Both the position numbers and the translations under genes were made by a program. Source: Aequitasia blattaphilus (GTDB lineage Bacteria > Bacillota > Clostridia > Lachnospirales > Lachnospiraceae). Taken from it: DNA of 64,000 bases. The first letter of the stretch is position 1, and the number at the start of each line of letters is the position of its first letter. The notes under the pieces are model-generated. The model ran no database searches, was not told the DNA's origin, and saw only the letters and a program-made list of their open reading frames with translations. Below are positions 2,074-54,846 of this stretch, piece after piece. The stretch is from NCBI RefSeq assembly GCF_024721305.1, contig NZ_JAMXOD010000009.1, forward strand, positions 54,735 to 118,734, read 5' to 3'.

Positions 2074-3888
2074 GTGGCAGGAATCGAACAAAAAAACATA
2101 CGAAATTTTTGCATTATTGCACATATAGATCATGGAAAATCAACCTTGGCAGATCGTATTATAGAAAGAACGGGATTGCTTACCAGCAGAGAGATGCAGT
2201 CTCAAGTTTTAGACAACATGGATCTTGAGAGAGAGCGCGGTATTACAATTAAAGCACAAACGGTACGTACCGTTTATAAAGCAGAAGACGGAGAAGAATA
2301 TGTCTTTAACTTGATTGATACTCCAGGACATGTGGATTTCAATTATGAAGTATCAAGAAGCCTTGCGGCTTGTGATGGTGCCATCTTAGTGGTGGATGCG
2401 GCACAAGGAGTAGAAGCCCAGACTCTGGCCAATGTTTATTTGGCATTAGACCATGACCTTGATGTGGTACCGGTGATTAATAAAGTGGATTTACCCAGTG
2501 CCGAGCCAGAACGGGTGATTGAAGAAATTGAAGATGTAATCGGAATAGAGGCTCAGGATGCACCCCTGATTTCGGCGAAAACAGGACTGAATATTGACCA
2601 GGTATTGGAACAAATTGTGAAGAAAATTCCGGCACCATCAGGAGATCCAAGTGCACCTTTACAGGCTTTGATTTTTGATTCCTTGTATGACGCCTACAAA
2701 GGAGTAATCGTTTTTTGTAGAATTATGGAAGGAAATGTTAAAAAGGGAGATCCCATCCTTATGATGGCAACGGGAGCAAAGGCTGAGGTTGTGGAAGTAG
2801 GATATTTCGGAGCCGGACGGTTTATTCCTTGTGATGAATTAAGTGCTGGAACCGTTGGTTATATTACGGCAAGTCTTAAGAATGTTAAAGATACTCAAGT
2901 GGGAGATACCGTAACGAGTCCGGTAAGGCCATGCGAAGAGCCCTTGCCGGGATATAAAAAAGTAAATCCGATGGTATACTGTGGTTTATACCCGGCAGAC
3001 GGAGCTAAGTATCAGGACTTAAGAGATGCGCTGGAAAAGCTTCAGTTAAATGATGCGGCTCTTCAATACGAACCGGAGACATCGATTGCACTAGGTTTTG
3101 GTTTCCGATGTGGATTCCTGGGATTATTGCATTTGGAAATCATTCAGGAGAGACTGGAGAGGGAATACAACCTGGATCTTGTAACAACTGCACCGGGAGT
3201 TGTGTACCGAGTGTATAAATCGAATGGGGAAATGATTGAGCTGACAAACCCTTCAAACTTACCAGATCCATCAGAGATTGAATATATGGAAGAACCTGTG
3301 GTGAAAGCAGAGATTATGGTAACTTCTCCTTATATTGGCGCTATTATGGATTTGTGCCAGGAGAGAAGAGGCCAGTATGAGGGTATGGAATACATAGAGG
3401 AGACACGGGCGGTATTGCATTATCAGCTTCCGCTAAATGAAATCATTTATGACTTCTTTGATGCTTTAAAGTCTCGTTCAAAAGGCTATGCCTCTTTTGA
3501 TTATGAGATGAATGGTTACCAACGATCCGAGCTTGTGAAGCTGGATATATTGATTAATAAAGAAGAAGTGGATGCCCTTTCCTTCATCGTTCATGCTGGA
3601 ACAGCTTATGAGCGGGGAAGAAAGATGTGTGAAAAGCTAAAAGAGGAGATTCCAAGACAGCTTTTTGAAGTGCCGATTCAAGCAGCAATTGGAAGTAAGG
3701 TTATTGCAAGAGAAACTGTTCGTGCAATGCGAAAGGATGTGCTTGCAAAATGCTACGGTGGTGACATTTCAAGAAAGAGAAAACTCTTAGAAAAGCAAAA
3801 AGAAGGAAAGAAACGTATGAGGCAAGTAGGAAACGTAGAAATTCCTCAGAAAGCTTTCATGAGTGTCCTGAAATTGGATGATAAATAA
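2074..3888 (+). CDS. lepA: Elongation factor 4 (LepA)
   Basis: This is a ribosome-bound translational GTPase. I place the start at GTG 2074 because GGAAGGA lies 9 nt upstream and the product then begins [12 protein letters not shown], matching LepA N-termini, and has 604 aa, the usual length. The frame extends upstream to a TTG at 2017, which would add 19 atypical residues. G1 is AHIDHGKST (16-24), the switch 1 region has RGITIK, G3 is DTPGH and G4 is NKVD. The LepA-specific C-terminal domain is present and rich in Lys and Arg near the end ([16 protein letters not shown]). Confidence 0.95.
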
Positions 3889-5544: not shown

Positions 5545-6057
5545 TTATAGAAGTTTTTGCATAATCAAAGAATAAACTTCTTCGCTGTTTTTGTACCAAT
5601 TATCCGCAATTGTTTGCGCTTCTGCAATCGATGGAACGGAGACGTTTAAGTCAATCAGGGGAACGTTTCCTTCCATTACCCGCAGACGTACGGTGTATTC
5701 ATGATTCACATTCTCATAATAATCTGCTTTAATCTGAGATTCTATTTTCAAATCATATTTTTTTTCGGACAGATAAACATCAATATCTGCAATGATATCT
5801 CCAGATATTTCTTTTGAAAAATAGTGGAGTGTTTTTTCACCCTCCTCTGTTAAATGGTAAAGAGTACGATTGTGGGTGTTTTCCACACGAATAAAGCCGG
5901 AATTTTCTAGTTCCGACAAGGTTTGCTGCAGCTTAAAATATGTGGTGTAACCCTTGTCTAAGATGAAATCTGAAATCTGTGAGGTTGCCAAGGGGAAGTC
6001 CACCTTGTTTAACATGTATAATACGATTAATTTATAAAGCAAGTTTACGTCTGCCAT
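5545..6057 (-). CDS. DUF4364 family protein
   Basis: The 170-aa product begins MADVNLLYKLIVLYML and contains a winged-helix-like N-terminal half (about 1-90), including ISDFILDKGYTTYFKLQQTLSELENSG as spaced helices, with an alpha/beta C-terminal half. This matches the DUF4364 family of Clostridia. Its function is unknown; the winged-helix shape suggests a regulator (inference). It lies directly downstream of the YhcC-type gene with 1 nt between them, so the two form an operon. It converges on the nitroreductase gene with only 2 nt between the stops and no visible terminator. Confidence 0.82.
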   Translation of the reverse strand: MADVNLLYKLIVLYMLNKVDFPLATSQISDFILDKGYTTYFKLQQTLSELENSGFIRVENTHNRTLYHLTEEGEKTLHYFSKEISGDIIADIDVYLSEKKYDLKIESQIKADYYENVNHEYTVRLRVMEGNVPLIDLNVSVPSIAEAQTIADNWYKNSEEVYSLIMQKLL

Positions 6058-6058
6058 T

Positions 6059-6985
6059 TTATTTCAGCTCCTTTCCCTGCCAAATATCCTGTTCCTTCAA
6101 ATAGTGGTGAAGTCTGTTTAATACCAGTTTTTTGTTTGCTGTCCATTTTGGCTCGATGAGTAAGTTTTTTGGGCCGTCTCCTGTTAAACGGTGTATGACA
6201 ATATCAGGGTCTAAATGCCCGATGCAAAATCCGATGAAATCCAAATATTCCTCCAAGGATGGAATACAGAAAGGAGACTGCTCAAACAGTACGCCTAAAT
6301 CTGTCTGTTTTAAAATGTAGAGCAAAGAAATTTTTACCCCCCATATAGGAGACTGGTTAATGTATTGTAATGTTTCGTAAATCTCTTTCTGGCTTTCGCC
6401 GGGAAGTCCCAGTATCATGTGGACAACCACGGGAATTTTATGGATGTTCAATTGATTCAAAGCTTTATCGAAGGTTTGGTGGGAATAGCCTCTGCGAATA
6501 AAGTCAATACTTTTCTCGTGGATTGTCTGTAATCCTAGTTCGATCCAAACCGGCTTTATTTTATGAATGCGGCAAAGCACATCAATAATCTCATCCGGGA
6601 GACAGTCACCTCGGGTTGCAATTGATATCGCCTTAATGTCAGGATGGTTTGCAGCCTCCAGATAAAGAGATTCCAGTCTTTGAGGATTGCCATATGTATT
6701 GGTAAAGGCTTGGAAATAAGCAATATAAGAGGAACCTTTATATTTATCTCCAATCCGAAGTTTTTCTGCTTCAATTTGTTCTGTAATGGACAAAGAAGAA
6801 GAGGAAGTGAAATCCCCAGAGCCACCGCTGCTGCAGAATATACAGCCTCTTGTATCAAGAGAGCCATCACGGTTTGGACAAGTACAGCCTGTGTTTAAGG
6901 AGACTTTGTAGACTTTTTCTCCAAAGGTCTGCTTTAAATAATAGTCCAAAGAATGGTAAGGTTTATCGCCCCATGTTTTTTTCAT
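6059..6985 (-). CDS. TIGR01212-type (YhcC) radical SAM protein
   Basis: The 308-aa product has the cysteine-rich segment VSLNTGCTCPNRDG...GCIFC near residues 29-51, the spaced CxC...CxxC pattern of the YhcC subgroup of radical SAM enzymes. It is followed by the TNTYGNPQRL segment and LGLPGESQKEI. Its reaction is not established. The Shine-Dalgarno sequence GAAGGGAT sits about 9 nt before the ATG on the minus strand. It is transcribed away from rho, and DUF4364 follows in the same operon. Confidence 0.85.
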   Translation of the reverse strand: MKKTWGDKPYHSLDYYLKQTFGEKVYKVSLNTGCTCPNRDGSLDTRGCIFCSSGGSGDFTSSSSLSITEQIEAEKLRIGDKYKGSSYIAYFQAFTNTYGNPQRLESLYLEAANHPDIKAISIATRGDCLPDEIIDVLCRIHKIKPVWIELGLQTIHEKSIDFIRRGYSHQTFDKALNQLNIHKIPVVVHMILGLPGESQKEIYETLQYINQSPIWGVKISLLYILKQTDLGVLFEQSPFCIPSLEEYLDFIGFCIGHLDPDIVIHRLTGDGPKNLLIEPKWTANKKLVLNRLHHYLKEQDIWQGKELK

Positions 6986-7028
6986 AATTTGTTAATCCCT
7001 TCTGATAGGTATATTATCATATTTTTCA

Positions 7029-7057
7029 TTGTATTTCCAAGATTTTTGTAGTATACT
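7029..7057 (+). promoter_or_regulatory. Candidate sigma-A promoter for rho
   Basis: TTGTAT at 7029-7034 and TATACT at 7052-7057 are separated by 17 nt, close to the housekeeping consensus, and lie about 60-90 nt before the rho start. Confidence 0.6.
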
Positions 7058-7117
7058 TTGAGAAGTGTATTCATCCAGTCGTTTCTGACGAAAATTCCAA
7101 GGGATAAAAGATAAATA

Positions 7118-8488
7118 ATGAAAGAGAAAGGAAATAAAAACACAATGCGTGAAAAGTATGAGTCATTACCTCTTGCGACGCTAAAAGAATTGGCAAAGGC
7201 CAGAGGGATCAAGGGTATTTCAGCTCTAAAAAAGGCAGAACTCATTGAAGTAATGTTACAAGAAGACAAAAAGGCGGAAGTGGAGAAGGCAGAACAGGTT
7301 AAGACAGAGCCGGTTAAGACAGAGGCTGCAAAAACGGAAACAAAGGAATTTAAGGCTTTAGATAGTGGGGATAAGGCTTTTGGTATTTTAGAGGTGATGG
7401 CAGATGGTTTCGGTTTTATACGAAGCGATAATTATTTGCCGGGAGATGCGGATGTGTATGTGTCACCTTCCCAAATTCGTAAGTTTAATTTAAAGACTGG
7501 AGATATTTTAGAGGGACATACGAGAGTAAAAACCCAACAGGAAAAATTTAGCGCTTTATTATACCTGTCCAAAATAAACGGATTATCTCCTCGTGAAATA
7601 ATCGGGCGTGGAAATTTTGAGGATATGACTCCCATTTTCCCTAATAAGCGTCTGAAATTAGAGACCACAAAAGATAATAGGGCAATGAGGGTAATGGATT
7701 TGATTTCACCAATTGGTAAGGGACAAAGAGGGATGATTGTTTCTCCACCAAAGGCTGGAAAAACAACTCTTTTAAAACAGGTGGCCTTATCTGTGAGAGA
7801 AAACAATCCAGAAGTACACATGCTGATTCTGCTTATTGATGAGCGTCCTGAGGAAGTGACGGATATTAAAGAAGCCATTGAGGGAGAAAATGTAGAGGTA
7901 ATTTACTCGACTTTTGATGAATTGCCAGATCATCATAAGAGAGTTTCGGAAATGGTGATTGAACGGGCGAAGAGATTGGTAGAGCAAAAACAGGATGTAA
8001 TGATTTTACTGGACAGCATTACAAGACTTGCAAGAGCATACAATCTAACTGTTCCGCCGTCAGGGCGAACACTTTCAGGTGGATTGGATCCGGCAGCACT
8101 TCATATGCCAAAACGTTTCTTTGGTGCGGCACGAAATATGAGAGAAGGCGGCAGTCTTACAATCTTAGCAACGGCTCTTGTAGACACAGGAAGTAAAATG
8201 GATGATGTGGTTTATGAAGAATTCAAAGGAACAGGTAATATGGAGCTTGTGTTGGATCGTAAAATGTCAGAACGTAGAATCTTCCCGGCAATCGATATTT
8301 TAAAATCTGGTACCAGACGAGATGACTTACTCTTTGAGGGAGAAGAAAAAGCGGCGACGGATTACATGCGCCGTAATCTTAATGGGAATCGAAGTGATGA
8401 AGCAGTTGACAAGATTCTTTATATGTTCTCAAAAACAGAAAATAATGTAGAATTTATTCAATGGTTAAAAAAGACGAAATTCAACTAG
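7118..8488 (+). CDS. rho: Transcription termination factor Rho
   Basis: Rho is a hexameric RNA helicase that ends transcription. The order is: N-terminal SAP-like helices (about 15-47), an acidic/Lys-rich linker with repeated KTE units (about 50-80), a cold-shock-type RNA-binding domain (about 84-140), Walker A in PPKAGKTT (210-217) and Walker B in [15 protein letters not shown]. Length is 456 aa. A start at ATG 7145 ([13 protein letters not shown]) is also possible, with AAAGGAA 11 nt upstream; the ATG at 7118 has a weaker, more distant site. rpmE follows, as in many Firmicutes. Confidence 0.95.
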
Positions 8489-45820: not shown

Positions 45821-47188
45821 ATGAAAAAGAAAGAAATATACAATGGAATTGTAGAGAGTGTAGAGTTTCCAAATAAGGGAAGGGTAATCGTTGAAGGGGA
45901 AGAGAAACCCGTATTGGTTAAAAATGTACTGAAGGATCAAGAAGTGGAATTCCGTGTTCTAAAAATGCGGAAAGGAAAGGCAGAGGGTCGCCTTCTGCAG
46001 GTTACAAAAAACAGTCCCATAGAAATAGAGCCTCAATGTCAGCACTTTAATAGTTGTGGAGGGTGTTCTTACCAAAACCTTCCTTATGAGGAGCAGCTGA
46101 AGCTAAAAGAAAGCCAGGTAAAGGAGCTTCTGGATCCGGTCATTCGAGGTGAATATCTTTTTGAAGGAATTAAGGGGAGTCCCAGAGAAAGGGAATACCG
46201 AAATAAAATGGAATTTTCTTTTGGAGATGAAATCAAAGATGGACCTTTGTCTTTAGGAATGCATAAGCGAGGCAGCTTCCACGATATTGTGAATGTAGAT
46301 GCCTGTCAGATTGTTGATGAGGATTTTAGGAAAATTCTTACAGCAACCAGGGAATATTTCACAGAGGAGAAAGTTCCTTTCTATCATCGCATGAAGCATA
46401 CGGGATATCTCCGTCATTTATTGGTACGAAAAGGAATTAAAACGGGAGATATTCTGGTGGACTTGATTACCACGAGCCAGATTAACCGACAGGAAGATGC
46501 CTGGAAGGAGGTTCTCCTTAGTCTTGAGCTGAAAGGAAATTTAGTGGGAGTTTTGCATACGATTAATGACAGTGTGGCAGATGTGGTAAAGGATGAAGGA
46601 ACCACAATTCTACAGGGTCAGGATTATTTTTATGAAGAGCTGTTAGGTTTGAATTTTAAAATCACTCCCTTTTCTTTTTTTCAAACGAATTCTCTGGGAG
46701 CTGAGGTGCTTTACGATGTCACCAGGGAGTATATTGGGGATACTCAGGGAAAGGTGATTTTCGATCTTTACAGTGGAACTGGAACCATTGCCCAGATTCT
46801 TTCTCCTGTTGCGGAAAAGGTGGTAGGAGTGGAGATTGTGGAAGAGGCGGTAGAGGCGGCGAAGGAAAATGGAGTTTTAAACAAGTTGACAAACTGTGAT
46901 TTTTGGGCAGGGGATGTGCTAAAGGTTATTGATGAACTGGAAGACAAGCCAGATTTGATTATCCTTGATCCACCCAGAGATGGGATTCATCCAAAGGCGA
47001 TTGGAAAGATTATTAACTTTGGGGTGGATAAGATGGTGTATGTGAGCTGTAAGCCTACGAGTCTTGCAAGGGATTTGGTGGCGCTGCAGGCAGGAGGATA
47101 TCAGGTGGAGAAGGTTCAGTGTGTGGATATGTTTCCTGGGACGGTGCATGTGGAGACGGTATGCTTGATGTCTAAGGTCTCAGAATAA
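45821..47188 (+). CDS. rlmD: 23S rRNA (uracil-C5)-methyltransferase
   Basis: The 455-aa product has an N-terminal TRAM domain (about 3-58), 4Fe-4S cysteines C73, C79 and C82 with a fourth near 162, then the SAM-binding FDLYSGTGTIAQ, DPPRDGIHP and the catalytic cysteine in YVSCKPTSLARDL. It is the TrmA/RumA family; the exact uridine target (position 1939 or others) cannot be told from the sequence. Gram-positive bacteria often carry paralogues. Confidence 0.88.
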   Translation: MKKKEIYNGIVESVEFPNKGRVIVEGEEKPVLVKNVLKDQEVEFRVLKMRKGKAEGRLLQVTKNSPIEIEPQCQHFNSCGGCSYQNLPYEEQLKLKESQVKELLDPVIRGEYLFEGIKGSPREREYRNKMEFSFGDEIKDGPLSLGMHKRGSFHDIVNVDACQIVDEDFRKILTATREYFTEEKVPFYHRMKHTGYLRHLLVRKGIKTGDILVDLITTSQINRQEDAWKEVLLSLELKGNLVGVLHTINDSVADVVKDEGTTILQGQDYFYEELLGLNFKITPFSFFQTNSLGAEVLYDVTREYIGDTQGKVIFDLYSGTGTIAQILSPVAEKVVGVEIVEEAVEAAKENGVLNKLTNCDFWAGDVLKVIDELEDKPDLIILDPPRDGIHPKAIGKIINFGVDKMVYVSCKPTSLARDLVALQAGGYQVEKVQCVDMFPGTVHVETVCLMSKVSE

Positions 47189-47300
47189 GGTGTGAGAAAA
47201 GCCTTGTTTCAAGGGATTTGTGAGGATTGATGGTTTTTGCAAGCGATGAGGAAATGGACAGAATATCGCTTCATGGAAACATATCAAAATCGAGAAAAGG

Positions 47301-47354
47301 TATAGTTTAGACTTTGATTTGGATGTCGGCAAAATTGAGTAGGCGATTTGGATG
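47301..47354 (+). repeat. Cassette repeat A
   Basis: The most divergent copy of the ~53-bp repeat. It keeps the TATAGTTTAG start, GGATGTCGG and a TTTGGATG end. Confidence 0.65.
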
Positions 47355-47393
47355 TTATGAAATTTTGCCTGACAGGTCAGTCGGATTTTAGAT

Positions 47394-47446
47394 TATAGTT
47401 TAGGCTGTGGATTGGATGTCGGGAAATTGAATTAGTGATATGGATG
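47394..47446 (+). repeat. Cassette repeat B
   Basis: TATAGTTTAGGCTGTGGAT at the start and GATATGGATG at the end. Its 40-nt core (47407-47446) matches copy E at 36 of 40 positions. Confidence 0.8.
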
Positions 47447-47477
47447 TTGTTGAGATAAATAGATATTTAGGATTAAT

Positions 47478-47594
47478 ATGAGCACATTTACTATAAAAGA
47501 ATATGATGAAGCACCTGCACCACAAGAGGCAACATTTCTAGATTTGGTTTATATCTATTGCATCTTTCGCAAGGATTTATTACTGCAAACATGA
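47478..47594 (+). pseudogene. 38-codon ORF, possible remnant between repeats
   Basis: ATG 47478 opens a 38-codon frame (MSTFTIKEYDEAPAPQEA...) ending at TGA 47592-47594. It begins 31 nt after repeat B, the same place where cassette genes start after copies C to E. The N-terminal TIKEYDEA resembles the start of small acetyltransferases, so it may be a truncated cassette gene. No clear ribosome binding site. It may be no gene at all. Confidence 0.35.
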
Positions 47595-47607
47595 AAGTGA
47601 GAATTTT

Positions 47608-48249
47608 ATGAGTACAAAAAAGCTAAATATCAAAGTAATTGTAATGTCCTATATCTTCTTTCTTTTAGGTTGGACTATCCGTGTCACTTGCATCAGTCTT
47701 TCGGGTTTAAATGAATATGCTGCATGGGCAATGGGATTTCTCATTCATTTTGTGTGGTGGTTCTTATTTGCATTGTTCATGGTTAGAAGATACAGCGGAG
47801 AGCTTCTTGTTTCATTAAAAGACATGATAAAAACTAAACCAAACATGAAAGTATTACTGCCTCTTTTGCTATTTGCCGTTGCATATAATGCAGCTGTGTT
47901 TTTTAATCAGGGTACTGGTTTTCATTTAGAGATGAAATTATATGACTTAATTATTACAATCCTGACGGTGGGGATTTTTGAAGAGGCTGTGTTTCGAGGC
48001 TGGTTCTTAAACGCAATAGCACGCTTTACCACTGAGCGTAAGGCAAATTTGATTTCTTCGGTCATGTTTGTGTTTATTCACTACCCGTCATGGATTTTTC
48101 ATGGGTACGATACGGTAACAATTATAACCACAAGTATTTTGATGTATGGTCTCAGCTTAACATTTGGCTGGATATTTAGGAAAAATCGTTCCATTTGGCC
48201 AGGGGCAATCTTCCATTCGTTCTGGGACATGCTGTCATTTATCATGTAA
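47608..48249 (+). CDS. CPBP family intramembrane metalloprotease (cassette 1)
   Basis: The 213-aa polytopic protein has the CPBP motifs EEAVFRGW (125-132), FIHYPSW (H158) and GAIFHSFWD (H203), with the Glu-Glu and His residues expected to hold zinc. CPBP proteins include CAAX prenyl proteases and bacteriocin self-immunity proteins, so the exact job is open. Gene is on its own between repeats B and C, with no co-transcribed neighbour. Confidence 0.82.
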   Translation: MSTKKLNIKVIVMSYIFFLLGWTIRVTCISLSGLNEYAAWAMGFLIHFVWWFLFALFMVRRYSGELLVSLKDMIKTKPNMKVLLPLLLFAVAYNAAVFFNQGTGFHLEMKLYDLIITILTVGIFEEAVFRGWFLNAIARFTTERKANLISSVMFVFIHYPSWIFHGYDTVTIITTSILMYGLSLTFGWIFRKNRSIWPGAIFHSFWDMLSFIM

Positions 48250-48341
48250 AAACAAAAGTGTGGTAGGATGATATACAACGGCAAGTTGCCGGATGGCAAG
48301 CTGAAGTGGGAAGATTGGAATGAAGAGGTTTTAGTTTATCG

Positions 48342-48394
48342 GATAGTTTGGACCGTGGATTGGATGTTGGGGGATTGAGTGAGCGATATGGATA
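48342..48394 (+). repeat. Cassette repeat C
   Basis: Starts GATAGTTTGGACC. Its 40-nt core (48355-48394) matches copy E at 37 of 40 positions. It lies between the CPBP gene and the SAP/DUF6434 gene. Confidence 0.82.
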
Positions 48395-48430
48395 ACAAGA
48401 GAAACTTGAAAGGAAAAAAGTGAGTAAACT

Positions 48431-49003
48431 ATGGCCGAAAGACCTGCTTTAGACAAAACATTATGCGGAAAAACATTTCGTGATTTCTATTATTTAAAAG
48501 ATGAGTTGGTAGATTTTTGTAGAAAAAATGGACTTCCTGTTTCAGGGGGGAAGATAGAAATAACAGATAGAATTGCCTGTTTTCTTGATACGGGTGAAAT
48601 ACCAGCAGCTTCAAAAACAAAGAGAAAAGTAGTAACGGAATCTGATATTACCGAGAATTCAAAAATAGAAACTGATTTTGTTTGTTCGGAAAAACACAGA
48701 TCGTTTTTTAAAAAACATATTGGAAATGGATTTTCTTTTAATGTAGCTTTTCAAAAATGGCTGAAAAGTAATACGGGAAGAACGTATAAAGAAGCAATTG
48801 CTGCTTATCATCAAATCCTTAAAGATAAGAAAGAAGGAAAAACAAACATTGATAAGCAGTTTGAGTATAACACCTATATCCGAGCTTTTTTTACAGATAA
48901 CCGAGGGAAAACTTTAGAGCAAGCGATTACATGTTGGAAATATAAAAAACAATTACAGGGTCATAACCGCTATGAACAGTCTGACCTAGTTGCTATGGAT
49001 TGA
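48431..49003 (+). CDS. SAP domain and DUF6434 protein (cassette 2)
   Basis: The 190-aa soluble protein has a SAP-type helix-extended-helix region (about 18-57, FRDFYYLKDELVDFCRKNG and ITDRIACFLDTG) and a C-terminal domain with FSFNVAFQKWLKSNTGRTYKEAIAAYH and FFTDNRGKTLEQAI, which fits DUF6434. SAP domains often bind DNA. It lies between repeats C and D. Function unknown. Confidence 0.78.
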   Translation: MAERPALDKTLCGKTFRDFYYLKDELVDFCRKNGLPVSGGKIEITDRIACFLDTGEIPAASKTKRKVVTESDITENSKIETDFVCSEKHRSFFKKHIGNGFSFNVAFQKWLKSNTGRTYKEAIAAYHQILKDKKEGKTNIDKQFEYNTYIRAFFTDNRGKTLEQAITCWKYKKQLQGHNRYEQSDLVAMD

Positions 49004-49042
49004 TAAATTCCAGTTTATACCCCATATCAACCGCAAAATAGC

Positions 49043-49096
49043 CATATTTTAGGCTGTGGATTGGATGTTGGGATTTTTGAGTGGGCGAGATGGATG
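49043..49096 (+). repeat. Cassette repeat D
   Basis: Starts CATATTTTAGGCTGTGGAT and ends with GAGATGGATG; the core (49056-49096) has one extra base relative to B, C and E. An AAGGAG ribosome binding site follows within 8 nt. Confidence 0.82.
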
Positions 49097-49114
49097 ACAA
49101 GGAGAATAATTAAC

Positions 49115-49780
49115 ATGGCAAAAAGAAAACAAATTGCTTCTTTAATAATAGGTTTTTTAGGTGCTATTATAGGATTGCTTTGCGTTTGGGCATTCAATCA
49201 ATATTTACTCATAACACTGCCGTTGGCGTTGCGAATGATAACGATGATTATCGTATACTGGCTAATAGTATTAGTGCCAACTATATTAATGATTAATAAT
49301 AAAGATACGCTAACTGATTATGGCTTTAACAAAAATAAAGTTGAATTGCAGATTATCTTAGGAGTATCTATTGGTATCGCCATGTCCTTAATACTCACTT
49401 TACTTCCGCATTTATTGGGTTTAGGTAAGAATGTCGACAACGGCAAGCGATATACACAGTTGTGGCAATTTTGTTATGAGTTTGTTTACTGTATTATAGC
49501 GGTTGGTTTCGTTGAGGAGTTTGTATTTCGAGGGTTTGTTTTTGAGAAAATAAAGCGTATTACCAATAAAAATACTATGGCGGTTATTGTTTCGTCTCTG
49601 CTTTTTGGAGTATTTCATTTTTTGAGCGGAAATATTGTGCAGATGATACTAACCGGTTTTATAGGCGCGTTTTTCTGTTTATGCAAATTGAAAATCAAAA
49701 ATTGTTCAATGCTATCATTGGTAATCGCACACGGAATATATGATGCGCTAATTACCGTTTGGGCATCGGTGTTATTATAA
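49115..49780 (+). CDS. CPBP family intramembrane metalloprotease (cassette 3)
   Basis: The 221-aa polytopic protein has EEFVFRGF (E134, E135), GVFHFLSG (H168) and IAHGIYDAL (H206), the CPBP zinc motifs. The start is ATG 49115, with AAGGAG at 49099-49104; a frame upstream to 49061 would translate the repeat itself and is rejected. It is not a close copy of the first CPBP. It stands alone between repeats D and E. Confidence 0.82.
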   Translation: MAKRKQIASLIIGFLGAIIGLLCVWAFNQYLLITLPLALRMITMIIVYWLIVLVPTILMINNKDTLTDYGFNKNKVELQIILGVSIGIAMSLILTLLPHLLGLGKNVDNGKRYTQLWQFCYEFVYCIIAVGFVEEFVFRGFVFEKIKRITNKNTMAVIVSSLLFGVFHFLSGNIVQMILTGFIGAFFCLCKLKIKNCSMLSLVIAHGIYDALITVWASVLL

Positions 49781-49807
49781 AGTTAGTTGACGATTCGGCT
49801 GTCGCAC

Positions 49808-49860
49808 GATAGTTTAAGCTGTGGATTGGATGTTGGGGAATTGAGTTAGCGATATGGATG
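49808..49860 (+). repeat. Cassette repeat E
   Basis: Starts GATAGTTTAAGCTGTGGAT and ends GATATGGATG (core 49821-49860). It is followed at once by ACAGGAGG and the GNAT gene. Confidence 0.82.
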
Positions 49861-49875
49861 ACAGGAGGAAAACCA

Positions 49876-50382
49876 ATGGATTGCATCATAAGAGAATGGA
49901 GAATTGAGGATAAAGTCGATTTGGCGAAAGTGCTAAATAATAAACATATTTTAGATAATTTGCGTGACGGACTACCATACCCATATACGGTAGATGATGC
50001 AGAGGAATATATTATTGCGATGTTGTCAGCCGACAAAACAAAAACCTTTGCGTTTGCAATAACCTTAAATGATGTAGTTATAGGCAGTATTGGTGCGTTT
50101 CGCTGTGATAATATTCATTTCAGAACTGCCGAAATGGGATATTATATAGGAGAGGAACAATGGGGAAAAGGTTACGGCACAAGTGCTGTGACATGGGTCT
50201 GCAACTATCTATTTGAACACACCGATATTATCAGAATTTTTGCGGAACCGTTTGCTTATAATATTGCCTCATGCCGTATTCTCGAAAAATCAGGATTTCA
50301 ATTTGAGGGGACTTTACATAGCAATGCGGTTAAAAACGGACAAGTCATAGACATGAAAATGTATGCATTAGTAAAAGTATAA
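49876..50382 (+). CDS. GNAT N-acetyltransferase (cassette 4)
   Basis: The 168-aa product begins MDCIIREWRIEDKVDL and has the GNAT acetyl-CoA motif EEQWGKGYGTSAV and the ENIASCRILEKSGF-type segment (NIASCRILEKSGFQFEG), matching the RimJ/RimL group that acetylates amino groups. The start is ATG 49876, 7 nt after AGGAGG; an earlier ATG at 49858 lies in the repeat. Target unknown. Confidence 0.88.
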   Translation: MDCIIREWRIEDKVDLAKVLNNKHILDNLRDGLPYPYTVDDAEEYIIAMLSADKTKTFAFAITLNDVVIGSIGAFRCDNIHFRTAEMGYYIGEEQWGKGYGTSAVTWVCNYLFEHTDIIRIFAEPFAYNIASCRILEKSGFQFEGTLHSNAVKNGQVIDMKMYALVKV

Positions 50383-50399
50383 GGAGTTAGGGGGAGGTT

Positions 50400-51026
50400 A
50401 TGATTCTTGATAACTTAAAAGCATTAAAAGATGATATGGTCAGCAAGAAGTGGACAATCTGTAGCTTCATCTTTAACTATAAAGAAATTGAATACATAGT
50501 ACTTGTAAAGAGGTTTGTGGGAGCAGAAAAAAGGATTAGCGATTATGCTTTAGTCAAATTACACTTTATGAAGTCTGCTGACCTAAAAGACGATTTAGAA
50601 GTAGAAGCAAATAGTAATGGTTTGCTCATTGATTCAAAAAAATTACGTCAATACTTCGGAATAGAGTATCAAGAAAATCTTGGTGACGTTCTTCGTCAAT
50701 TCACAGAACGTTTAGGAAATGAGATTCCACCATCTGTTCCTGATTCTGACAGTGTTTCACAAATTGAAAAAAAGGCAATGGTTCAATCTTTAAGTAAAAG
50801 TGATTCGGAAGATCCAAATAAAATCTATTGTACAAAAGTAAAAAGAAACCCAAATCAAGGGCAACGAAGTGAGTTTAATTCTGATAAAACGAAATTGCTG
50901 AGAGAATCTTTATTCGAACACTTTCGTAACAACTCAGAGATTAGTTTTTGTTATTCTTTGGACGCTGAAAAGGAAAATAATGATGCTGCTATTTTAAGAA
51001 ACTTTGCAAATAACAATTCCATGTAG
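50400..51026 (+). CDS. DUF6037-like protein of unknown function
   Basis: The 208-aa product begins MILDNLKALKDDMVSKKWTIC and contains YIVLVKRFVGAEKR, which recalls DUF6037. The N-terminal two thirds look folded; residues about 110-165 are rich in Ser, Asp and Lys. GGGGGAGG precedes the ATG, and it follows the GNAT gene by 17 nt without a repeat. It ends near the edge of the recombinase module (stop 51026) and may be intact or shortened. Confidence 0.6.
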   Translation: MILDNLKALKDDMVSKKWTICSFIFNYKEIEYIVLVKRFVGAEKRISDYALVKLHFMKSADLKDDLEVEANSNGLLIDSKKLRQYFGIEYQENLGDVLRQFTERLGNEIPPSVPDSDSVSQIEKKAMVQSLSKSDSEDPNKIYCTKVKRNPNQGQRSEFNSDKTKLLRESLFEHFRNNSEISFCYSLDAEKENNDAAILRNFANNNSM

Positions 51027-51086: not shown

Positions 51087-52652
51087 TTATCCCTCAATCT
51101 CCACATTCCCCCCCGACTTGAACTCCACCGAGAACCTATCCGAGGAAACTGTAATCTTCCCAATCAGCCGCCTTACCAGCTTCTCATCAAATTCAGTTAC
51201 CTCAGTCGGCTGGGATGCCACAAAATCCTGCAAATCGGTAATCCGGCTCAGCTTTTCATCCCGTGCGACAGTGTCGGATTCAGCCTTGTTTTTCAGTTCA
51301 CGCAGGCGGAATATCTCATCGGAAACGGTGTCATATTCCTCTTTTTTATGTGCTTTTTTAAGAAGTTCGTGCTGCAGCTCATTCAGCCGTTCATCAATGC
51401 CCTCTGCCGAAGCGGCATCAGATTGCCGTACCGCAGCGGCGATATTCTGCTGAAGGGTCTTGATAAGGTTTTCTTTATCGCCAAGTGTTTGGTTAATCGC
51501 TTTCAGCACGATTTCCTCTAACAGCAGCTCGTTTACGGTGCGTGAGCGGCAGACATGACCGGTGCTTTCAAGTCGGCTGATGCACCGCCAGACGATGGAC
51601 TTACAGCCGCGGTTATTCCAATGGATTCGGCGGTACATCTCCCCGCATTCGCCGCAGAAAACGATCTGGGCAAAACAGTGATTGCTGCTGTAACTGCGTT
51701 TCTTTCCGCTTGGGCTAGTATGCACTACCCGCCTGCGGATGAGTTCTTCCTGCACCAGCATATAGAGTTCTTTGGGAATAATGGCAGGGTGGTTATCCTC
51801 AATATAATATTGCGGTACAGTGCCGTTATTCTTAATTCGCTTTTTGCTCAGAAAATCAATGGTATAAGTCTTTTGCAGGAGAGCATCTCCCATGTATTTT
51901 TCATTGCGCAGGATTTTATTAATCGTGCTTGTGTGCCATTTAGGCTTTCCGGCACCGGTAAGGATGCCGTCTGCTTCCAGTCCTGCCGCAATCTTATCCA
52001 TGCTCGATCCCTCAAGGTACTCACGATAAATCCGCTTTACGATTTCAGCGCCCTCGGGTTCGATGACAAGATTGCCGTCCGCATCCTTGGTGTAACCGAG
52101 AAAGCGTTTGTGGTTGATTTGCACTTTTCCCTGTTGGTAACGGTACTGAAGCCCCATTTTGATGTTCTGGCTTAAACTTTGGCTTTCCTGTTGTGCAAGG
52201 CTCGCCATAATCGTGAGCATCACCTCGCCCTTGGAGTCCATTGTATTTATGTTTTCCTTCTCGAAGAAAACGGGGATATTCTTATCCTTCAGCTGCCGGA
52301 TGTATTTCAGACAGTCGAGCGTATTACGGGCAAAGCGAGAGATGGATTTTGTAATAATCATATCAATGTTTCCCGCTTCGCACTCATCAATCATGCGGTT
52401 GAACTCACTTCTCTTCCTCGTGTCGGTGCCGCTGATACCATCGTCTGCGAACACGCCAGCCATCACCCATTCGGGATTTTTGCTGATGTATTCGGTGTAA
52501 TGGGCAATCTGTGCTTCATAGCTTGTAGCCTGCTCTTCGCTGTCAGTACTGACTCGGCAGTACGCTGCGACACGCAGTTTAGGCTTTTCTTCCTGCGGTC
52601 TGGCGGTATTTCCGATTTGTCGTCTGGCAGGAATGACCATAACATTTCCCAC
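51087..52652 (-). CDS. Large serine recombinase (third of three)
   Basis: The 521-aa product has the resolvase-type catalytic domain with S35 in [13 protein letters not shown], the recombinase domain with [26 protein letters not shown], a zinc-ribbon with [10 protein letters not shown] and [12 protein letters not shown], and a coiled coil (about 395-470). The start is GTG 52652, directly after the stop of the middle gene, with GAGGTGAA upstream. It catalyses site-specific integration or excision. Coding GC looks higher than in the neighbouring core genes. Confidence 0.92.
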
Positions 52653-53057
52653 TTAATTCACCTCGCTTCCGATTAAACTGTAAAGATATTCCGCTTGCTT
52701 AAAAGGGTTATCAAAATGCTCCCTCACAGGCTTTACGCTAAACTGCGTGGGAATGACAATCTCTTTTTCCTTTGATACTTTATCAAGCCTGCCAAGCTTA
52801 GTGGCTCGTTTTATGAGTTCCTCCTGCGTCTTATCAAATAGATCTGCATCAATGATGGCGGGATAAAAGCTGTCGCCAAGGTAGCGGCGGTTAGTTAAAA
52901 TTCGCTTTGCTGTGCCGTGGTATGTTTTAAGCCCCGCTTCTTTTGCGGCACCCGCAAGGCTTAATCCCGATAAGTAATGCCTATAAAGATTTCTGATTTT
53001 CTCTGCGGAAGCTCTATCAATGACCGTCATGCCGTTTTCTGTTTTGTAGCCTAACAT
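52653..53057 (-). CDS. Recombinase-domain protein without catalytic domain (middle of three)
   Basis: The 134-aa product MLGYKTENGMTVIDRASAEKIRNLY... matches the second (DNA-binding) half of large serine recombinases, with ILTNRRYLGDSFYPAIIDADLF, but has no N-terminal Ser domain. It lies between two full recombinases with a 3-nt gap on one side and none on the other. A catalytically inert partner is a common member of such trios. It is unlikely to be a decayed gene, as its frame is intact. Confidence 0.85.
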   Translation of the reverse strand: MLGYKTENGMTVIDRASAEKIRNLYRHYLSGLSLAGAAKEAGLKTYHGTAKRILTNRRYLGDSFYPAIIDADLFDKTQEELIKRATKLGRLDKVSKEKEIVIPTQFSVKPVREHFDNPFKQAEYLYSLIGSEVN

Positions 53058-53060
53058 AAT

Positions 53061-54614
53061 TCACATCTTTTCCCGCAGTACCAAGCCGCATTTTAATTCA
53101 AAGCCGACGTCCTGTCTTGAATAAACGATAATGCGGCTTACGTGCCTGCTGAATAATTCTTCGTCAAAGCATAAAAGCATATTTGCTTTTTCCGCAAAGC
53201 GAAGCAGACTGTTTAACTCGCTGACTTTGGCATTGTCGTCAGTCGCACTGCCAGCTAACATTTGGGTCTCTCTGCGGTAATTCTCAGCCTGCATAAGAAG
53301 TTCGTTGTTTTCCTTTGTGTAAACAATCTTGTCGATATAGCCGCTTGTCATTAGCCTTGTCAGCGTTTCTCGCTGCTCTTTGTTTTTAAGAAGCAGGGTC
53401 TGAATTTCGTGGGTGCGATGAAGATTATTGTCTGTTCCATTTGACTTAAATTCCTCAAGCAGTGGCTTTAAAATCAGCTTATGGGCAAATATCAGCTTGT
53501 TCATCATGGTGATAAAAGCAAACTGCAAATCGTCATCTCGGATATACTTCATGGAGCATTTTTCTTTATCCTCGATATGGGTATTACAGCACCATGCCGC
53601 ATAACTTTGTTCTTTTTGGTAATGCGTTCTGCGCTTGAAGGTGCTGTGACACTCGCCGCAGATGATTTTACCCGAAAATGCGTACCGTCTTTGATATTTG
53701 CCGCTGCCGGAGACGATGTTTTTCTCAGCGGCACGTGTTTCAAGCAAAGCCGCCGCAGTTTCAAAGTCCTCTTTGCTGATGATTGCTTCATGATGGTCAG
53801 CTACCATGTACTGATCACGCTCGCCGTTATTGGTGCGGCGCTTAAAACGACTGTCGGTATAGGATTTTTGAAAAATCACATCGCCGGTATATTTTTCATT
53901 CTTCAGCATTCCGTTAATGGTGGAAGCTGTCCATTTACCGCCTTTCTTGGTAGGCACACCGTCAGCATTAAGAGCATCAGCAATCGCTTTTGTGCCTTTA
54001 CCGATTAGGACTTCAGCAAAAATCCTCTTAACAACACCGGCTTGCTCCGTGTTTACAATCATCTCTTCGCCGTTCCAATCGTATCCGTAAGGCGGATAGC
54101 TGATTTTGTAGGTACCGTTTTGAAAGCGGTTCTTAATCGACCACTTGTTATTAAGAGAAATGGAAGAGGACTCATCCTGCGACATACTGCTTAGTATCGC
54201 AAGGAAAAGTTCACTTTCCATAGAGCCTGTGTTGATGTTCTCCTTCTCAAATAGGACGGGAATATCAAGATCTAGCAGTTTTCGCACCAGTTCCAGGCAG
54301 TCGGTGGTGTTGCGTGAAAATCGGCTGATGGATTTCGTTATCACAAAATCTATTTTCCTATTCTCACAGTCTTTCATCATTTGCATCAGTGCCGTGCGGT
54401 TTTCAGCCGATGCTCCACTAATCCCCTCGTCAAAATATAGACCGGCAAATTCCCAGTCGTTACGAGCAGCGATATAGTTTTCGTAGTGTGATTTTTGCGC
54501 TTCAAGGCTTTCTAACTGGGCTTCGCTGTCTGTGCTGACACGGCAGTAAGCGGCAACACGCAGTTTCTTTTTGCTCTGGCTTTCTACAGCATCAATTTTT
54601 GTTATCCTTTTCAA
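53061..54614 (-). CDS. Large serine recombinase (first of three)
   Basis: The 517-aa product has catalytic S27 in [13 protein letters not shown], the recombinase domain with PYGYDWNGEEMIVNTEQAGVVKRIF, zinc-binding CGECHSTFKRR and CCNTHIEDKEKC, and a helical C-terminal part. It leads the three-gene operon. The target site of this enzyme class is usually a short attachment site; it could not be assigned here. Confidence 0.92.
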   Translation of the reverse strand: MKRITKIDAVESQSKKKLRVAAYCRVSTDSEAQLESLEAQKSHYENYIAARNDWEFAGLYFDEGISGASAENRTALMQMMKDCENRKIDFVITKSISRFSRNTTDCLELVRKLLDLDIPVLFEKENINTGSMESELFLAILSSMSQDESSSISLNNKWSIKNRFQNGTYKISYPPYGYDWNGEEMIVNTEQAGVVKRIFAEVLIGKGTKAIADALNADGVPTKKGGKWTASTINGMLKNEKYTGDVIFQKSYTDSRFKRRTNNGERDQYMVADHHEAIISKEDFETAAALLETRAAEKNIVSGSGKYQRRYAFSGKIICGECHSTFKRRTHYQKEQSYAAWCCNTHIEDKEKCSMKYIRDDDLQFAFITMMNKLIFAHKLILKPLLEEFKSNGTDNNLHRTHEIQTLLLKNKEQRETLTRLMTSGYIDKIVYTKENNELLMQAENYRRETQMLAGSATDDNAKVSELNSLLRFAEKANMLLCFDEELFSRHVSRIIVYSRQDVGFELKCGLVLREKM

Positions 54615-54666: not shown

Positions 54667-54846
54667 TCAAGTCAATTTGGGCATTATCTCAGCCAAAAAC
54701 GGAGAGAAATCCTGCCGATTTAATTCGGTTATTTTGTTGTATTCACACAAAGAAATAAGCCCTTCATCAAGCATGGTTTTGATGATGATCTGCCCACGGT
54801 GATAATCAAACTCGGCTTGCTCCTGCGCCTTACTAATCTCGTACAT
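54667..54846 (-). CDS. SHOCT-like short protein linked to the recombinases
   Basis: ATG at 54846 opens a 59-codon frame, MYEISKAQEQAEFDYHRGQI..., whose MLDEGLISLCEYNKI segment matches the SHOCT-type helical motif found beside serine recombinases in Clostridia. The stop TGA is at 54667-54669. It is shorter than 60 residues. CTCGGACTGGAGGATATT lies before the ATG, with GGAGG as a ribosome binding site. Role unknown; perhaps DNA binding. Confidence 0.75.
   Translation of the reverse strand: MYEISKAQEQAEFDYHRGQIIIKTMLDEGLISLCEYNKITELNRQDFSPFLAEIMPKLT

Follow-up and report, generated by a model that had tools for sequence, protein, structure and literature searches.

Repeats resembling half of an attachment site mark a probable cargo slot beside rlmD-type genes in Clostridia

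The window analysed here is a 64-kb stretch of the Aequitasia blattaphilus genome (contig NZ_JAMXOD010000009.1, positions 54,735 to 118,734), and our subject is an array of ~53-bp repeats and single genes that follows a 23S rRNA (uracil-5-)-methyltransferase gene of the rlmD/rumA type. Judged from its sequence, this array is probably a cargo slot situated at an end of an integrated element whose family targets rlmD and carries a triplet of serine recombinases. The safest statement would be that it is the cargo slot of rlmD-targeting triplet elements, with repeats similar to the right half of these elements' attachment site. The order common to such loci is the methyltransferase 3′ end, which contains a repeat-like sequence (unit 0), then ~157 bp, usually two to four tandem repeat units, cargo and a recombinase triplet reading toward the units. 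Taken together, the findings below suggest that phage-like elements stack cargo genes in a slot beside rlmD.

A repeat search of the window located five imperfect copies, A to E, starting at 47301, 47394, 48342, 49043 and 49808, and bore out the number and starts given in a preliminary description of this DNA. Scanning with a position weight matrix (PWM) resolved every ~53-bp copy into two 28-bp units lying in tandem and in direct orientation; all copies, and all genes of the array, are on the plus strand. Pair A (47302..47358) consists of units 47302-47329 and 47331-47358, scoring 28.4 and 23.3 bits; pair B (47395..47450) of units 47395-47422 and 47423-47450 (32.0 and 18.7 bits); pair C (48343..48398) of units 48343-48370 and 48371-48398 (25.7 and 18.1 bits); pair D (49044..49100) of units 49044-49071 and 49073-49100 (26.2 and 21.2 bits); and pair E (49809..49864) of units 49809-49836 and 49837-49864 (26.0 and 23.1 bits). 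Counted over 40 bases from the starts of the copies, matches numbered 35 for B-E, 34 for C-E, 32 for B-D, 31 each for B-C and A-B, 30 for D-E, 29 for A-D, 27 for C-D, 26 for A-E and 24 for A-C. The highest count that any core reached against Markov-shuffled versions of the window (50 shuffles) was 24-27 of 40. Most pairs of copies exceed this chance level, A-C, A-E and C-D being the only ones that do not. The likeness reported earlier is thus real, although the 36 to 37 matches of 40 first given for B-E and C-E were slightly too high. In copies B to E identity rises from ~0.2 to 0.8-0.95 exactly at ATAGTTT, where the first unit of the pair begins, and drops after ~50 bases, past the second, with some likeness near the ribosome-binding sites. 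Searches of the organism's own 3.2-Mb genome matched this array only, and on this ground a dispersed intergenic repeat was rejected.

The anchor of the device is the rlmD/rumA-type gene itself (45821..47188, plus strand; Pfam tRNA_U5-meth_tr). Its 3′ end, over the codons for HVETV, holds unit 0 (47147..47174, plus strand), proposed here to form the right half of an attachment site. Unit 0 ranked first and second by the two matrices described below (from 90 units and from ten seeds, respectively); from its start to that of pair A is 155 bp. Pair B is followed by a gene for a CPBP/Rce1-like protease (47608..48249; PF02517), pair C by a gene with SAP and DUF6434 domains (48431..49003; PF18953, PF20026), pair D by a second CPBP/Rce1-like protease gene (49115..49780; PF02517) and pair E by a GNAT acetyltransferase gene (49873..50382; PF13302), Pfam agreeing with the families first assigned by inspection. 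Their start codons lie 157, 32, 14 and 8 nt past pairs B, C, D and E. The statement that each gene begins shortly after a repeat therefore stands for C, D and E and fails for B, and no gene belongs to copy A. The 157-nt gap in module B (47451-47607), against 8-32 nt in C-E, is possibly a remnant of another gene. The recombinase triplet (51087-54614, minus strand) begins 1.2 kb past the last unit. Its member closest to the array is a large serine recombinase (51087..52652; Pfam Resolvase, Recombinase and Zn_ribbon; phrog_95 integrase), the middle member is short and has the Recombinase domain only (52653..53057; PF07508), and the third is again a large serine recombinase (53061..54614; Resolvase, Recombinase and Zn_ribbon). 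In reporting no integrase here the preliminary description was mistaken, as Pfam identifies all three of these as serine recombinase genes.

The device was found in other clostridial genomes, with a methyltransferase 3′ end or a displaced copy of it, ~157 bp, usually two to four units and differing cargo genes. A profile of ten copies (sequence only) was run on 398 genomes of the family and matched 32 of them at E 0.01, our own genome included. Pattern matches beyond the window genome lay directly 3′ of rlmD-type genes or of displaced fragments of such genes (G002, which is of the same genus as the window, G355, G272 and G397; codes of this kind are our own labels). Of 30 loci retrieved via repeat-model matches, 26 carried an upstream unit 0 on the strand of the repeats; the four without it were L038, which is an inner copy of the window itself, L047, an inner pair of G313, and L060 and L067. 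At the level of the class, 11 of 291 genomes matched at E 0.001, again including our own, and in other families of the class unit 0 was present in nine of the 11 loci outside our own genome, L195 and L198 being without it. A displaced unit 0 with two units was also found on contig NZ_JADBEL010000020.1 (locus L025) of Sporosarcina limicola, which we take not to be a clostridium, so that the device would extend outside the Clostridia; there it follows a gene that looks HNH-like by eye. The distance from unit 0 to the start of the array was 140-190 bp in 43 of 45 arrays (median 157); since these arrays were chosen by repeat model, pattern or unit 0, they show spacing and not linkage. Some anchors are paralogous methyltransferase genes, that of G104 being 33% identical to the window protein. 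In G001, of the same genus, rlmD is present and no array was found, and the locus is therefore not fixed in relatives. Gene order and repeats fixed in all relatives, which the preliminary description had named as evidence against its cassette reading, are thus not what we see, and the profile search of related Clostridia that it proposed returned the device in many genomes, with differing first genes. Three further observations concern the structure of such loci. In G313 (contig C40, 46263-47765) the rlmD-type gene matches as two adjacent pieces and may be interrupted; in L069 (G377) the block and its cargo are doubled in tandem (oriented 2229-3402 and 5985-7145), with near-identical first genes; and one subfamily of blocks (L032, L072, L073, L075, L111) has an inverted unit ~90 bp past unit 0.

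The likeness between the units and the rlmD 3′ end was tested by ranking. The main PWM had been grown by iteration and had absorbed rlmD ends, and the test was therefore redone with non-coding units and then repeated with ten seed units. With a PWM of 90 non-coding units the rlmD 3′ end ranked first of ~1,400 places in 7/7 genes. In the ten-seed test 24 loci were entered and 18 yielded a gene that passed the filter; the rlmD 3′ end was first in 11 of these 18 and among the top three in 16.

Displaced copies of unit 0 gave a view of the possible whole site. Some are preceded by an inverted unit (e.g. GACATC..CTCAAGC), forming a dyad centred on the CA of the His codon, which would be the form expected of an attachment site for a large serine recombinase. 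The score at the dyad offset was above 0 in 16 of 69 displaced copies, a class defined by regular expression in which some genuine methyltransferase genes are probably counted, and in 0/9 sites classed as rlmD genes and 0/303 background sites. In G040 the stretch from rlmD to the displaced copy is a 55-kb prophage with a 26-bp repeat common to both ends; six of its proteins, scanned with PHROGs, were identified as tape measure, head, portal, terminase, endolysin and DNA polymerase. A scan of viral sequences found unit 0 in 41 contigs, some of them also with downstream units, and a scan for another unit form found one contig, L129. In viral contig L111 the end of the triplet is followed after 147 bp by unit 0 with its inverted half, and then by two units, a gene, two units and a gene, the units being the sole sequence that the second pair shares with the first block. 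In L079-L081 single serine recombinase genes end over unit 0. At L037 (3280-3588, minus strand; G272) an open frame starts as the HVETV end and continues into another protein; it adjoins an inverted half-site and a recombinase fragment, and looks like a further element end in tandem.

The array also travels with a particular group of recombinases. The recombinase nearest the array was searched in 200 genomes of the family and gave 19 matches in 16 genomes. All seven matches that were at least 69% identical (our own, G082, G056 and G149 among them) were flanked on the 3′ side by unit 0 and tandem units, toward which the recombinase reads, against 0/12 of those at most 65% identical, two of which had short 3′ flanks (L134, 1,435 bp; L142, 536 bp). 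By coordinates, the L134 triplet lies ~3.9 kb before a unit array in another layout; at L136, L138, L143 and L144 there is a unit 0-like site and no array. A tree was built from 33 recombinase rows; it mixes triplet positions, and its long branches elsewhere are unsure. In it the window and eight others with an array formed a clade with support 100/100, and L132, which has an array, and L134 joined at 98/99. Given their likeness to unit 0 and their association with one recombinase clade, the units would most simply be read as binding sites of these recombinases.

The place of the cargo in this order is best seen in G061 and G040, where rlmD, unit 0, three units and ~60 bp lead directly to the recombinase, with no cargo. 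Cargo occupies the same slot in the window and in G272, G056, G082, G223, G149 and G026. Eight blocks, from six genomes (the window included) and one viral contig, can be aligned from unit 0 through the last units, beyond which they diverge. Most first cargo genes have the orientation of the units and often begin within 60 nt of them. When 20 of the 49 first cargo proteins were scanned, Pfam assigned a family to 12, one of them just below the curated cut-off; the families include GNAT, carbon-nitrogen hydrolase, alpha/beta hydrolase, RES, trypsin-like, Panacea and DUFs. PADLOC, given ten of the 49, matched a single one, as a type I methyltransferase, and we did not retain a defence reading of the cargo. 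Two further loci hold distinctive genes. At L085 (2818-4349; G392) a unit pair at an rlmD-type gene is followed by a minus-strand frame of 441 aa that resembles a tyrosine integrase by eye. The same two-gene pair, toxin-antitoxin-like by eye, occurs near these elements in two genomes, at L032 (1610-2301) and L071 (11582-12213), the two genes being 82% and 91% identical.

On this evidence we propose that the recombinase would exchange strands at the CA in the His codon of HVETV and that the element would bring a replacement 3′ end, leaving rlmD whole. The downstream units would be half-sites bound by the same recombinase family, and new cargo would enter beside the last unit. The window holds four stacked modules, each a unit pair with a gene, and little else of the element appears to be left besides the triplet. 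That the recombinases may move single modules at unit pairs is the step we infer with least certainty, and comparisons between loci bear on it. Between G082 and G104, which belong to two genera, the stretch that begins in the units and takes in a trypsin-like gene shows 95.9% identity over 905 bp, against 82% in the preceding block, 66% and 67% in the rlmD orthologues (in two main pieces) and 71-73% in the paralogues. Between G313 and G149 a module with transporter-like genes, presumably of the arsenic type, is 89% identical over 2,774 bp, the rlmD comparison for this pair being limited to 84 bp. One gene, which we take to be TfoX-like, lies 5 nt past the units in G377 and 808 nt past them in G104 (70% identical), and a 398-aa protein is encoded at 25 nt in G235 and at ~7 kb in G104 (95% identical). 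Genes that are first in one locus thus lie deeper elsewhere, an order that would fit entry next to the units.

Several results weigh against a slot served by rlmD-targeting recombinases in this manner. Arrays retrieved by other routes adjoin recombinases 59-65% identical to that of the window (G313, V105, V129, G389), as measured over the part available for comparison and with some of these being fragments, and the divide at 69% is therefore not sharp. The ten-seed ranking had two exceptions, G001 (rank 58, without an array) and L153 (rank 63). At the dyad offset 53 of 69 displaced copies did not score above 0, and no dyad was found at that offset before window pairs C, D and E, B being weak at -9.2 bits. 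No second attachment site above 10 bits was found in the window up to 56 kb (50-56 kb examined by PWM scan), and the window element consequently looks like a remnant. No unit was present at the right ends of the cargo in the six loci examined, and the near-identical stretch of G082 and G104 ends inside the start of the next gene. Finally, loci elsewhere with DUF6434 homologues were without units in 24/24 cases within the sequence available, some with short flanks, a negative outcome for DUF6434 as a marker of module mobility. Of the cassette layout with a shared boundary put forward in the preliminary description, the boundary element and the changing gene content are supported, and the DUF6434 loci speak against independently moving cassettes.

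In a bolder form of the same proposal the array would be the counterpart of an integron among serine recombinases, in which tandem half-site units by the attachment site would form a capture platform for single-gene modules. The triplet would insert modules, each led by its own unit pair, and phage-like rlmD elements would thereby carry an exchangeable cargo array. We regard this as possible and hold it only tentatively. If the recombinases do use the units, serine recombinases would own a gene-cassette platform, in Clostridia. A simple way of locating cargo also follows from the locus, namely to search past the last unit, and the role of serine-integrase triplets becomes testable.

Among other explanations, the one that fares best is that the unit pairs are leftover, inactive element ends, that modules were stacked by homologous recombination or slippage, and that the recombinase does not act on the downstream units. 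The resemblance of pairs B, C and E to one another (31-35 of 40), the tandem doubling of block and cargo in G377 (L069) and the two pairs of G082 against one in G104, which unequal exchange could also give, are all consistent with it. However, the imperfect copies are short, the spacing is the same in many genera and several families, and the left joints of the modules fall exactly on the unit start in B to E, so that we consider this explanation unlikely.

The units could instead be operators or leaders of the cargo genes, their likeness to unit 0 showing only that one protein binds both. Such a role would fit the position of most first cargo genes, which come after the units, share their direction and often start within 60 nt of them, and a regulatory role may exist beside the recombination role. 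As the sole explanation it is distinctly improbable, since the units have no fold beyond chance, promoter-like sites are not enriched (11 found against 13.4 expected in shuffles), and G061 and G040 have units without cargo. An RNA leader in particular was rejected, there being no fold and, at E up to 1, no match to any Rfam family within 46800-50600.

Integron arrays consist of unrelated single genes, each bounded by one repeat family, and single genes between shared sites are indeed found here, but a classical integron-type array with its integrase elsewhere has very little chance of being correct, because single strands had no fold beyond chance (z -1.08 to 1.28 for ten strands of five copies) and the enzymes adjoining the arrays are mostly serine recombinases, with one tyrosine-type by eye (L085). 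On the fold test and the serine recombinases found, attC sites were rejected, and no IntI-type tyrosine integrase occurred among nine Pfam-scanned proteins at 45.8-54.6 kb, the rest of the genome not having been searched for IntI. Unlike the repeats of integron arrays, those described here lack the attC fold, precede each gene and resemble a serine-recombinase site, and no integron integrase was seen. The preliminary description was right to set the repeat apart from integrons, as it has no attC fold and the three proteins with recombinase domains among the nine scanned are of the serine type; its suggestion of a different cassette-forming system needs amending, as recombinases are present and the repeat is part of a device tied to rlmD-type 3′ ends.

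The 3′ end of rumA/rlmD is already known as a landing site of serine recombinases. Single-serine-integrase integrative and conjugative elements (ICEs) occupy rumA in streptococci, as does CTn5 in Clostridioides difficile (PMC4701971, PMC4320837), and these share their target gene family and serine recombinases with the array. The integrase genes of L079-L081 end over unit 0, as in the rumA ICEs (PMC4701971). In contrast, the window has a triplet, and its recombinase genes do not end at rlmD although the site matches. The passages available from these two sources make no mention of tandem units or unit-led cargo (PMC4701971, PMC4320837). Serine-integrase triplets of streptococcal ICEs target hsdM, mutT and traG; their three genes stand side by side at the end of the element and read in one direction, in some cases with one or more genes separating them from the target (PMC4701971). 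The window shares the three adjacent recombinase genes in one orientation; in contrast to those targets, the one here is the 3′ end of rlmD-type genes.

A comparable logic is known from SCCmec and ECC, the staphylococcal and enterococcal cassette chromosomes, whose CcrAB serine recombinases act at the 3′ end of rlmH (PMC6222049). Like the array, they combine serine recombinases and highly variable cargo with a position at the 3′ end of a gene for an rRNA methyltransferase, and they have att sites of ~50 bp, inverted repeats in attR and several att copies in tandem (PMC6222049). Large serine recombinases are present in the window, as judged by Pfam domains. The 26-bp repeat of G040 and the dyad in 16/69 displaced copies may correspond to such att features, and no second site was found in the window at 50-56 kb. 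The rlmH 3′ end is not the anchor here, which by Pfam is an rlmD/rumA-type gene. In comparison with SCC/ECC, the array has an rlmD-type target, a recombinase triplet, single-gene modules led by units, and tandem 28-bp units ~157 bp inside the element. As the target, triplet and tandem units differ, we do not file the array as a member of SCC/ECC, though the logic is the same. A search of titles, abstract starts and passages, with most subscription journals and preprints outside its reach, found no description of tandem att-like units or unit-led modules at rumA/rlmD.

Two other leads were set aside. An origin from a phage or plasmid judged by DNA similarity gave gene-level matches only, with no units above 8 bits in two phage records, and three viral matches of the first pattern (L028-L030) were discounted as chance, all lying inside one gene that resembles a nuclease by eye. 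Of the remaining genes around the array, one with a DUF6037 domain (50400..51026, plus strand; PF19503) lies between it and the recombinases. Beyond the triplet, the translation of a 59-aa gene (54667..54846, minus strand) resembles, by eye, the end of a small gene beside the triplet of G272, whose small protein matches phrog_2996.

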